Virus record (IMG/VR): IMGVR_UViG_3300020281_001072 | Location: 1-49,229 of that record | Source of the DNA: a virus | Length of the DNA: 49,229 bases | Direction: 5' to 3' (one strand) | Shown here: one piece after another, positions 6,380 through 42,841 of the stretch | Position numbering within the stretch: the first letter of the stretch is position 1 | Layout of the letters: each line of letters starts with the position of its first letter | Program-made: the position numbers and the translations under genes | The notes under the pieces: model-generated | Seen by the model: only the letters and a program-made list of their open reading frames with translations | Told to the model about the DNA's origin: nothing | Database searches by the model: none

Positions 6380-6385
6380 AACTTC

Positions 6386-6588
6386 GTTGGACGCAACACA
6401 GGGAGTGACTGAATAAACTTACTGGCATATAGCTGGTTAAGGTGATGAGACACAGGTGGTGCTGCTGGTTCGAGTGAACCAGAACCGATGACCAATCGGG
6501 TCTCAGGCAGAGGAGTAATTCTAAACTGTAGAAATGCCCTTCTCTTGTTGGTACACAGGAATCCAACCTCCCACTCTATTATTTTAAG
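6386..6588 (+). ncRNA. Highly structured RNA: non-coding RNA or long structured leader
   Basis: About 203 bases without a coding frame behind a perfect promoter, packed with complementary segments. Seen: GTTG/CAAC at the 5' end; CTGGTTC-GAGT-GAACCAG (7 bp, about 6466-6483); CCGAT/ATCGG right after it; both enclosed by TGAGAC/GTCTCA. Next comes a two-part stem AGAGGAG/CTTCTCT around TTCTA/TAGAA, and GTTGG/CCAAC near the 3' end. GGAGTG near the start can pair with CACTCT near the end, closing the molecule before a U-rich stretch. The next gene begins directly afterwards at 6589, so it could be a cis-regulatory leader or an independent RNA. It does not match tRNA, tmRNA or RNase P RNA as far as I can tell. 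Confidence 0.6.
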
Positions 6589-24130: not shown

Positions 24131-24202
24131 GGGACTGTCGCCTATTGGTTAAGGCCCACTGCTTATAACGGTGTGAAGAGGGTTCAATTCCCTCCAGTCC
24201 TA
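24131..24202 (+). tRNA. tRNA-Ile (anticodon UAU)
   Basis: Acceptor GGGACTG/CAGTCCT (one GU pair), D arm GCC...GGC, anticodon stem CACTG/CGGTG with loop CTTATAA giving anticodon UAU (reads AUA), T arm GAGGG-TTCAATT-CCCTC, discriminator A. No encoded CCA. Bacteria normally read AUA with a lysidine-modified CAU tRNA, so a direct UAU tRNA suits an AUA-rich phage. Confidence 0.88.
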
Positions 24203-24210
24203 CCTTATCT

Positions 24211-24286
24211 GACTCAGTAGCTCAAAGGATAGAGCAACTGCCTTCTAAGCAGTTGGTTGTAGGTTCGAGTCCTACCTGAGTCGCCA
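24211..24286 (+). tRNA. tRNA-Arg (anticodon UCU)
   Basis: Acceptor GACTCAG/CTGAGTC, anticodon stem ACTGC/GCAGT with loop CTTCTAA giving UCU (reads AGA), T arm GTAGG-TTCGAGT-CCTAC, discriminator G and an encoded CCA (24284-24286). The next tRNA starts at the following base, so processing must cut precisely between them. Confidence 0.93.
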
Positions 24287-24359
24287 GGGAGTGTAGTCCA
24301 ACGGCAGAGACAGGAGACTTAAAATCTCTACAGTGTGGGTTCGACTCCCATCACTCCTA
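24287..24359 (+). tRNA. tRNA-Leu (anticodon UAA) on a class I body
   Basis: Acceptor GGGAGTG/CACTCCT, anticodon stem GGAGA/TCTCT with loop CTTAAAA giving UAA (reads UUA), T arm GTGGG-TTCGACT-CCCAT, discriminator A. The variable region is only 5 nt (ACAGT), whereas bacterial tRNA-Leu normally has a long variable arm. The anticodon loop is typical for Leu, so the amino acid follows from the anticodon but the body is unusual. No encoded CCA. Confidence 0.85.
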
Positions 24360-41662: not shown

Positions 41663-42508
41663 ATGACTGCGTTGATAGACCCAAGTTTATATACAAAGAC
41701 CGTAAACGAATTACGGTCTTTTTTTGTATCTAAAGGATTTTTAGAAGTCCACACACAGAATCGTTTAAGTATTCTCGCTGCCTGTGAAGACCCAGAGACA
41801 GTAGCAACTTACAATTATAATGGTCAGATTTGGCCACTACCTCAAACAGGTCAGATGTGGTTAGAATATGAATTACTTTCTAATCCTTCTGCGGAAGGAT
41901 TTTTTTGTGTCTCTACTTCATATAGGCAGGAACCAAATCCTGTACCAGGTAGACATGAAGTTATCTTCCCAATGTTTGAGTTTGAGATGAAGGGAGATGT
42001 TATTGCTTTAGAAAATTTATTGGTTGAATTATGTGAATGGTTTGGTAGACCATATAATGAGATGTGTAATCAAACTTATAAGTTCTGGCAAGAAGAGTTT
42101 CAAGTAAATGAACTAGAACATGAACATGAAGCAGAGATTGAATGGGGTATGATTAAAGACTTCCCTGAATTCACATCACCCTTCTGGAATATGGCAAGGA
42201 ACAAAGATGGGACTAGTAAAAAAATTGATGTAATCTTAGATGGTAAGGAGACTATAGGTAGTGCAGAACGCAGTACTGATAAGGAACAGATGCGTGATAC
42301 ATTCCATACTATCACTGAGGGTAAGTATGCCCAATTACTATACGATCTATTTGGTAAGGAGAGGGTAGAACAGGAACTAGAAGACTTCCTTAGTTTTGAT
42401 TTCTTCCCCAGATCTGGTGGAGGTATTGGGATGCAACGTTTGATGTCTGCCTTCTATGGTAAAAATGGAGCAAGACCATCAAGATTTAATCGCCCTCCTT
42501 GTGGGTAA
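41663..42508 (+). CDS. Class II aminoacyl-tRNA synthetase-like protein (AsnRS/asparagine synthetase-related core)
   Basis: 281 residues. Class II core motifs: motif 2 FCVSTSYRQEPNPVPGRHEV (R88, E90, H98) with FPMFEFEMKG, and motif 3 SGGGIGMQRLMSAF (251-264). The WPLPQTGQMWLEYELL stretch resembles the Q..Q.E amino-acid-binding segment of AspRS/AsnRS. There is no N-terminal anticodon-binding domain, as in archaeal-type asparagine synthetase relatives of AsnRS. It may make asparagine or aminoadenylate, or charge a specific tRNA. A tRNA with Asn anticodon lies 32 nt downstream. An intrinsic terminator is embedded in codons 11-21. Confidence 0.82.
   Translation: MTALIDPSLYTKTVNELRSFFVSKGFLEVHTQNRLSILAACEDPETVATYNYNGQIWPLPQTGQMWLEYELLSNPSAEGFFCVSTSYRQEPNPVPGRHEVIFPMFEFEMKGDVIALENLLVELCEWFGRPYNEMCNQTYKFWQEEFQVNELEHEHEAEIEWGMIKDFPEFTSPFWNMARNKDGTSKKIDVILDGKETIGSAERSTDKEQMRDTFHTITEGKYAQLLYDLFGKERVEQELEDFLSFDFFPRSGGGIGMQRLMSAFYGKNGARPSRFNRPPCG
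41695..41725 (+). terminator. Intrinsic terminator inside a coding sequence
   Basis: AAAGACCGTAA-ACGAA-TTACGGTCTTT, an 11-bp perfect stem followed by a run of T (41719-41725). It lies within the first codons of the synthetase-like gene, so it could end transcripts arriving from the fibre gene or attenuate the synthetase gene itself. Confidence 0.8.
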
Positions 42509-42515
42509 TAAAAAA

Positions 42516-42533
42516 GGAGGGTATTAACCCTCC
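42516..42533 (+). terminator. GC-rich hairpin after the synthetase-like gene
   Basis: GGAGGGT-ATTA-ACCCTCC, 7-bp perfect stem, preceded by A6 but followed by TATACTTT rather than a clean T run. It may be a partial terminator or a processing signal at the 5' side of the tRNA. Confidence 0.45.
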
Positions 42534-42540
42534 TATACTT

Positions 42541-42626
42541 TGTGAGGTGGCGAAATCGGTAAACGCTCTAGTCTGTTTAACTAGTGTCTCTGGCGGGACT
42601 TGTAGGTTCGACTCCTACCCTCACAG
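42541..42626 (+). tRNA. tRNA with Asn anticodon (GUU) on a class II, Leu-like body
   Basis: Acceptor TGTGAGG/CCTCACA, D arm GCG...CGC with AAATCGGTAAA loop typical of tRNA-Leu, anticodon stem CTAGT/ACTAG with loop CTGTTTA giving GUU, then a long variable arm GTCTC-TGGC-GGGAC, T arm GTAGG-TTCGACT-CCTAC, discriminator G. Long variable arms occur in bacterial Leu, Ser and Tyr tRNAs, not Asn. Base 37 is U instead of the usual purine. Discriminator G and anticodon GUU are Asn identity elements; the body is Leu-like. No encoded CCA. The true amino acid is undecided. Confidence 0.8.
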
Positions 42627-42685: not shown

Positions 42686-42841
42686 CTTCGGGTCAGCAAA
42701 TGCTAACCCAAATACTCTTCCCCTTAAACCAAGACCTATAGGGAAGTAAAATTACGTCTTTCATCCTACCTACAGAATTAGGGTACTGTAGGAACCTAAG
42801 TTCTGCTGATCCCCTATCAGCCCTACTTAAAAGTTGCAATC
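42686..42841 (+). promoter_or_regulatory. Structured 5' leader of psbA
   Basis: 156-nt leader with no Shine-Dalgarno before the ATG. Hairpins: GGGTCAGC-AAAT-GCTAACCC (42690-42709, one mismatch) at the very 5' end and CCTACAG/CTGTAGG (42769-42792). PhotoRC RNA motifs are known upstream of psbA in marine cyanobacteria and phages; I cannot confirm that this is one. Confidence 0.5.

Follow-up and report, generated by a model that had tools for sequence, protein, structure and literature searches.

An AsnRS-like enzyme paired with a Leu-bodied tRNA of asparagine anticodon in cyanophages: a possible asparagine-handling module connected with pyrimidine synthesis

Why does a cyanophage keep a synthetase-like gene, which has no anticodon-binding domain, directly in front of a tRNA with the body of a tRNA-Leu and the anticodon of a tRNA-Asn? 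The question is raised by a 49,229-base record of an uncultivated virus, which carries cyanophage genes including psbA and is referred to here, at its full length, as the window. The original prediction proposed that the two genes form a dedicated pair or that the tRNA places Leu at Asn codons. The features of the locus are listed in Table 1, where the synthetase-like gene is called the ligase; its tRNA is called the odd tRNA in what follows.

Table 1. Features of the ligase and tRNA locus in the window
Feature	Position	Strand	Basis or remark
AsnRS-like catalytic-core ligase, 281 aa	41663..42508	+	ATG at 41663, stop 42508
Hairpin GGAGGG-TATTAA-CCCTCC in the interval between ligase stop and tRNA	42516..42533	+	Read from sequence
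Class II Leu-bodied tRNA with Asn anticodon	42541..42626	+	ARAGORN, Rfam, covariation
Anticodon GUU	42575..42577	+	Kept in 58/58 distinct relatives
U37	42578..42578	+	Family-wide; purine in 95/95 other tRNAs of the same loci
Long variable arm with 4-bp stem, fast-evolving, with compensatory changes	42586..42599	+	Family alignment
Discriminator G73	42626..42626	+	Kept in 58/58 distinct relatives

The odd tRNA and its identity

The description of the locus in the original prediction is confirmed for both genes. The tRNA combines a Leu-type D arm and a long class II variable arm with GUU, U37 and G73, as read from the sequence and as called by ARAGORN (anticodon GUU) and Rfam (RF00005, 53.6 bits, E 7.8e-9), and the 281-residue ligase, a Pfam tRNA-synt_2 protein without an anticodon-binding domain, ends 32 nt upstream. 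In the window the tRNA has a U1:A72 pair, a 3-bp D stem, A14/A15, G18G19 and the anticodon loop CUGUUUA, which contains U37. Across 22 diverse homologous tRNAs, 528/528 pairs are standard and compensatory changes are present in 21 of the 24 pairs, as compared to 38–49% standard pairs in slid-alignment controls. This covariation rules out a chance or pseudogene tRNA; the molecule is maintained intact by selection.

Conservation was assessed in a scan from the ligase side, in which the anticodon, U37 and G73 were not required by the search. All three are nevertheless present in every one of the 58 distinct tRNAs that were found. The 1:72 pair is U1:A72 in 54 and A1:U72 in the remaining 4, C33 is present in 10, and the variable region spans 14–29 nt. 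Throughout the fetched loci, position 37 is U in 80/80 odd tRNAs and a purine in all 95 other tRNAs; the single C37 call among the latter was the odd tRNA of locus L056, misread. U37 is incapable of carrying t6A. Two relatives stand apart: an outlier in L166 with a degenerate acceptor end, and a class II tRNA at L175:7314-7461 with U37, the anticodon GUC (Asp) and an insertion of ~60 nt in the variable arm.

The body of the odd tRNA is that of a bacterial tRNA-Leu, with the same 3-bp D stem, A14/A15 and long variable arm, from which it differs in having GUU, U37, and G73 instead of A73. The Leu-type assignment follows as well from a covariance model built from the 22-tRNA family (R1), whose next-best match in bacterial genomes is ordinary tRNA-Leu. 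With bacterial tRNA-Asn(GUU) it shares GUU, G73 and, mostly, U1:A72, whereas the class II variable arm, the Leu-type D arm and U37 in place of A37 set it apart. Asn identity is conferred by GUU and G73, the amidotransferase (GatCAB) determinant is U1-A72, and G73 on tRNA-Ser is an antideterminant against LeuRS; in yeast, t6A37 blocks charging by AspRS (2023 review, PMC9976931). Together, GUU, G73 and the LeuRS antideterminant predict that the tRNA has Asn rather than Leu identity.

The suggestion that Leu is placed at Asn codons, with the Leu body charged by host LeuRS, is unsupported. It draws on the Leu-type D arm, the variable arm, A14/A15 and the R1 match to tRNA-Leu. However, G73 is invariant (58/58) and has a recorded role in repelling LeuRS, albeit on tRNA-Ser, GUU and G73 make up the Asn identity set (PMC9976931), the partner is an AsnRS-type core, and Leu at AAY codons would damage the phage proteome. 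This alternative is thus extremely improbable.

Several other RNA elements were observed. The hairpin in the window has a counterpart in other cyanophages that spans the stop codon of the ligase gene; in 57 cyanophage loci it lies at or just past the stop, a few bases 5' of the tRNA, and the stem sequences vary while pairing is kept. When compared to their own shuffles, 46 of 61 distinct hairpin leaders are better at p<=0.05, and the stems differ. The window also has a manA RNA (6385-6577, 172.6 bits) and, upstream of psbA, a PhotoRC-II RNA (42704-42807, 55 bits). Three tRNAs, Ile(UAU)-Arg(UCU)-Leu(UAA), occupy 24131-24359, 17 kb from the ligase; in P-SSM7 (L001:5674-5897) they appear in the same order, directly before the ligase.

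The ligase and its pairing with the tRNA

The ligase is found in at least 598 IMG/VR contigs. Co-occurrence with the tRNA in other cyanophages was borne out by the isolates P-SSM7, P-SSM2 and P-SSM5, where the same type of tRNA is positioned directly behind the gene. The gene itself has been catalogued as T4-GC194 'tRNA ligase', a sporadic gene present in P-SSM2 and P-SSM7; no remark on a tRNA pairing, an odd tRNA or a link to pyrE was found in that paper (Sullivan 2010, PMC3037559).

To avoid circularity, IMG/VR was also searched from the tRNA side, using the D-arm half alone as the pattern and specifying neither the ligase nor the anticodon. This produced 118 true tRNAs, and the ligase is directly upstream in 111/111 that could be tested, the other 7 having a contig end within 67 nt. 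The gaps are 16–24 nt, with two of 102 nt. Physical pairing in cyanophages is therefore obligate. Ligases from marine and viral sources that are more distant (L087, L088, L095, L104, L169-L172, L174 and L176) are accompanied by the same tRNA type at gaps of -18 to 1046 nt, and the tRNA carriers are spread over three separate clades of the ligase tree, which needs four changes. The 111/111 linkage and the three clades strongly support the proposed dedicated pairing, and the ligase and tRNA almost certainly constitute one functional module. The related expectation, that neither gene would be found without the other, holds in the cyanophages and fails outside of them, as cells and huge phages have ligases without the tRNA. 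In the huge phages LR756501 and LR756508 (loci L004 and L005; 735 kb and 484 kb), a ligase homologue is present and no tRNA is called by ARAGORN within 10 kb; a query of the L005 type found no further viral relatives. When sequences of tRNA-linked and tRNA-less ligases were compared, no residues marking one or the other group were found, and there was no convergence.

The sole confident Pfam family of the ligase is tRNA-synt_2 (class II D/K/N synthetases; 5.4e-16), and its PHROG assignment is phrog_29758, of unknown function. NCBIfam matches are all far under their cut-offs, including asnS (TIGR00457; 13.7 vs 342.6 bits) and archaeal asparagine synthetase A (NF005055; 24.8 bits vs a cut-off of 389). 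The N-terminal OB anticodon-binding domain is absent and all homologues consist of the core only. Within this core the residues of motifs 2 and 3 are invariant, which suggests that the ligase is an enzyme. A profile of 105 homologues matches AsnRS best (2xgt, 1.3e-12), the AlphaFold2 model is of high confidence (pLDDT 91.9, pTM 0.90), and a Foldseek search with this model finds AsnRS and AspRS at E values of about 1e-16.

Alignment of the pocket separates these two. L67, E68 and E106 are as in AsnRS, whereas AspRS has K, Q and D. In profile alignments a QxxQxxLE segment is common to the ligase and AsnRS, where AspRS reads QSPQLYKQ, and following motif 2 the ligase and AsnRS have ExE as opposed to the DxE of AspRS. 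As the pocket residues are of the AsnRS type, the amino acid used is quite probably Asn, and we infer that it is activated with ATP. The ligase therefore resembles AsnRS (class IIb; TIGR00457; 2xgt, 1x54, human NARS) in core fold, motifs 2 and 3 and pocket, and differs from it in having no OB anticodon domain and in falling far below the NCBIfam cut-off. Archaeal asparagine synthetase A, or AsnRS-related peptide (3p8t, 1nnh), is likewise an AsnRS-like core that stands alone, with about 290 aa and no anticodon domain, yet its profile match to the ligase is far weaker (3p8t, 1.9e-4), and we know of no tRNA linked to it. PylRS and tRNA-Pyl are a dedicated pair in which a class II enzyme has its own peculiar tRNA; in the phage pair, by contrast, the anticodon is a sense one and the AsnRS-type core has relatives in metabolism.

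Such a module could serve translation, with the ligase charging the tRNA independently of host AsnRS and the tRNA decoding AAU/AAC in phage mRNAs. Both tRNAs and aaRSs are known from phages (PMC7162821). This explanation accounts for the invariant GUU, the tRNA fold that is intact in all sequences, the Asn identity elements G73, GUU and U1:A72, the AsnRS-type pocket and the strict pairing. Loss of the OB domain might also leave space, on the class II approach side, for a long variable arm. A role in translation does not explain the universal U37 and the occasional C33, both of which would make for weaker decoding, or why the ligase has no tRNA-specific residues.

Alternatively, the tRNA could be regulatory, a tRNA-like molecule that binds the ligase and switches a metabolic activity according to its Asn charging, for which HisZ-like synthetase folds are a comparison. 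The near-constant short distance of the tRNA 3' of the gene, and ligase residues that are alike with or without the tRNA, are compatible with such a role. It is improbable, since the invariant aminoacylation identity elements and the full covariation of the T arm and acceptor point to charging, and motifs 2 and 3 are invariant. Defence evasion is hardly likely either. Here, a replacement Asn decoder would escape a host nuclease that destroys tRNA-Asn, and the phage would bring its own ligase if AsnRS were limiting. Phage tRNAs with altered anticodon loops do evade tRNA-targeting defences (PMC10264068, PMC11555353), and U37 is a change that adjoins the anticodon. Against this, one anticodon and one change are seen throughout unrelated phages, the ligase matches no family among the PADLOC defence models, and the links to PyrE and PyrD described below are left unexplained.

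Pyrimidine genes in phages and cellular relatives

When cyanophage PyrE is used as the query, the only cyanophage isolates found are P-SSM2, P-SSM5 and P-SSM7, in addition to short marine single-cell contigs. The six cyanophage records with PyrE are exactly those with the ligase, and they belong to these three isolates; as the denominator, a related gp23 is present in 514 records, 463 of them named Synechococcus, Prochlorococcus or cyanophage. Because P-SSM2 and P-SSM5 are one species, the co-occurrence represents two independent lineages, and since pyrE of P-SSM2 is ~116 kb from the ligase, it is more than linkage. PyrE is present in 6 of 22 ligase-bearing viral contigs, including one of 179 kb. 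In L034 the order is ligase, tRNA, small ORF, PyrE, PurM, and a PyrD-like gene adjoins the ligase and tRNA in L087 and is near the pair in L095. No PyrE or PyrD was found in the L169-L176 clade on contigs up to 108 kb. The 595-kb phage LR756511.1 has PyrE and a PyrD-like gene (212059-212520, 248256-248945) and no ligase match. The single contig L251 combines PyrE, the ligase and the odd tRNA with a canonical tRNA-Asn(GUU, A37). The odd tRNA therefore cannot simply be the one Asn decoder of that phage, which also counts against a pair kept for translation.

A scan of bacterial and archaeal genomes with the ligase gave 125 related places, of which 80 were kept. The cellular relatives come from Aureispira and other Bacteroidota, from many candidate-phyla bacteria, from Midichloriaceae and Pasteurella atlantica, and from some archaeal bins. 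In 21 loci PyrE/PyrF-type genes lie no more than 6 kb away, and in 19 loci PyrD does; the gene order in P. atlantica is pyrD, ligase, pyrF, pyrE. Among the cellular homologues L092-L165, the AsnRS-like enzyme is seen inside pyrD/pyrE/pyrF clusters (e.g. L132:4604-7892), and in candidate-phyla loci (L094, L096, L098, L105, L120, L126, L130, L136, L144, L164) Dus, DnaX and tRNA-Gln(UUG) often adjoin it. Taken together, the ligase is probably connected with pyrimidine synthesis.

The first steps of that pathway appear depleted in ligase genomes. PyrB (aspartate carbamoyltransferase) is over the cut-off in 0 of 18 ligase genomes and CarB in 3, as opposed to 14/14 controls for each, and the dihydroorotase PyrC (TIGR00857) is over it in 0/18, with weaker PyrC-type matches in 10. 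These counts are only indicative, because pyr-cluster loci were the main source of the 18 genomes, several of which are reduced or not complete. A full-length AsnRS is present in 10 of the 18. The cellular ligase family is a candidate for bypassing the first steps of pyrimidine synthesis.

The odd tRNA was not found near cellular ligases, and when 44 genomes were searched by pattern, it turned up solely beside phage-like ligases. Candidates elsewhere in the ligase-bearing cellular genomes were rejected, as the best R1 matches there are ordinary tRNA-Leu. Its absence from the cellular relatives means that the chemistry of the ligase cannot require this tRNA. That close relatives sit in pyrimidine clusters without such a tRNA is a further difficulty for dedicated charging in translation, which is simpler than the off-ribosome role considered next and is, on this evidence, possible though rather unlikely.

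A possible off-ribosome role for the tRNA

As the pair travels with pyrimidine-synthesis genes, the tRNA may serve metabolism and not only protein synthesis. We tentatively propose, while holding it to be less than an even bet, that the pair handles asparagine in connection with pyrimidine synthesis and that its tRNA probably acts as an off-ribosome carrier of Asn. The ligase family would feed pyrimidine synthesis and so bypass CarAB, PyrB and often PyrC. The chemical lead is that five of the six pyrimidine ring atoms are already in Asn, and that dihydroorotate corresponds to Asn plus CO2 minus water. The tRNA would be the Asn carrier, made a substrate of the charging enzyme by its GUU anticodon and G73, and charged by host AsnRS, by AspRS and GatCAB via U1:A72, or by the ligase itself; recognition by GatCAB is doubtful, as there may be additional bases in the Leu-type D loop. 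U37, by preventing t6A, and the odd body would keep the tRNA from normal decoding, such that its Asn goes to the ligase and the pyrimidine route, in which phage PyrE would act further down. The cellular relatives perhaps use free Asn or ordinary tRNA-Asn.

An off-ribosome carrier of Asn would explain U37, C33, the second tRNA-Asn and the PyrE link. Even so, the step from the pyrimidine connection to such a carrier is weaker than the connection itself. The cellular relatives manage without this tRNA, the tRNA-linked ligases have no convergent residues, the PyrC-type matches persist in more than half of the ligase genomes, the L169-L176 clade shows neither PyrE nor PyrD on its contigs of up to 108 kb, and the invariance of GUU fits plain AAY decoding too. 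A more specific version, in which the AsnRS-like enzyme would turn tRNA-borne Asn into dihydroorotate and so open a carbamoyl-phosphate-independent route to UMP, with bacteria using free Asn or ordinary tRNA-Asn, is doubtful. To our knowledge, no enzyme is known for the conversion of Asn to dihydroorotate, and a literature search on alternative pyrimidine routes found no such reaction.

In a literature search, outside of which most subscription papers lay, no report of the pairing, the tRNA class or the pyrimidine association was found. The combination of a Leu body, an Asn anticodon and universal U37 defines a tRNA class for which no described counterpart was found; the coupling of this class to a synthetase-like enzyme is strict. 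If the tRNA functions in translation, the pair would be a natural one that overlaps less with the host system. If instead the off-ribosome role is true, tRNA-dependent chemistry would be added to nucleotide synthesis. In addition, the ligase family points to a hitherto unrecognised entry point to the pyrimidine pathway in Aureispira, candidate-phyla bacteria, Midichloriaceae and Pasteurella atlantica.
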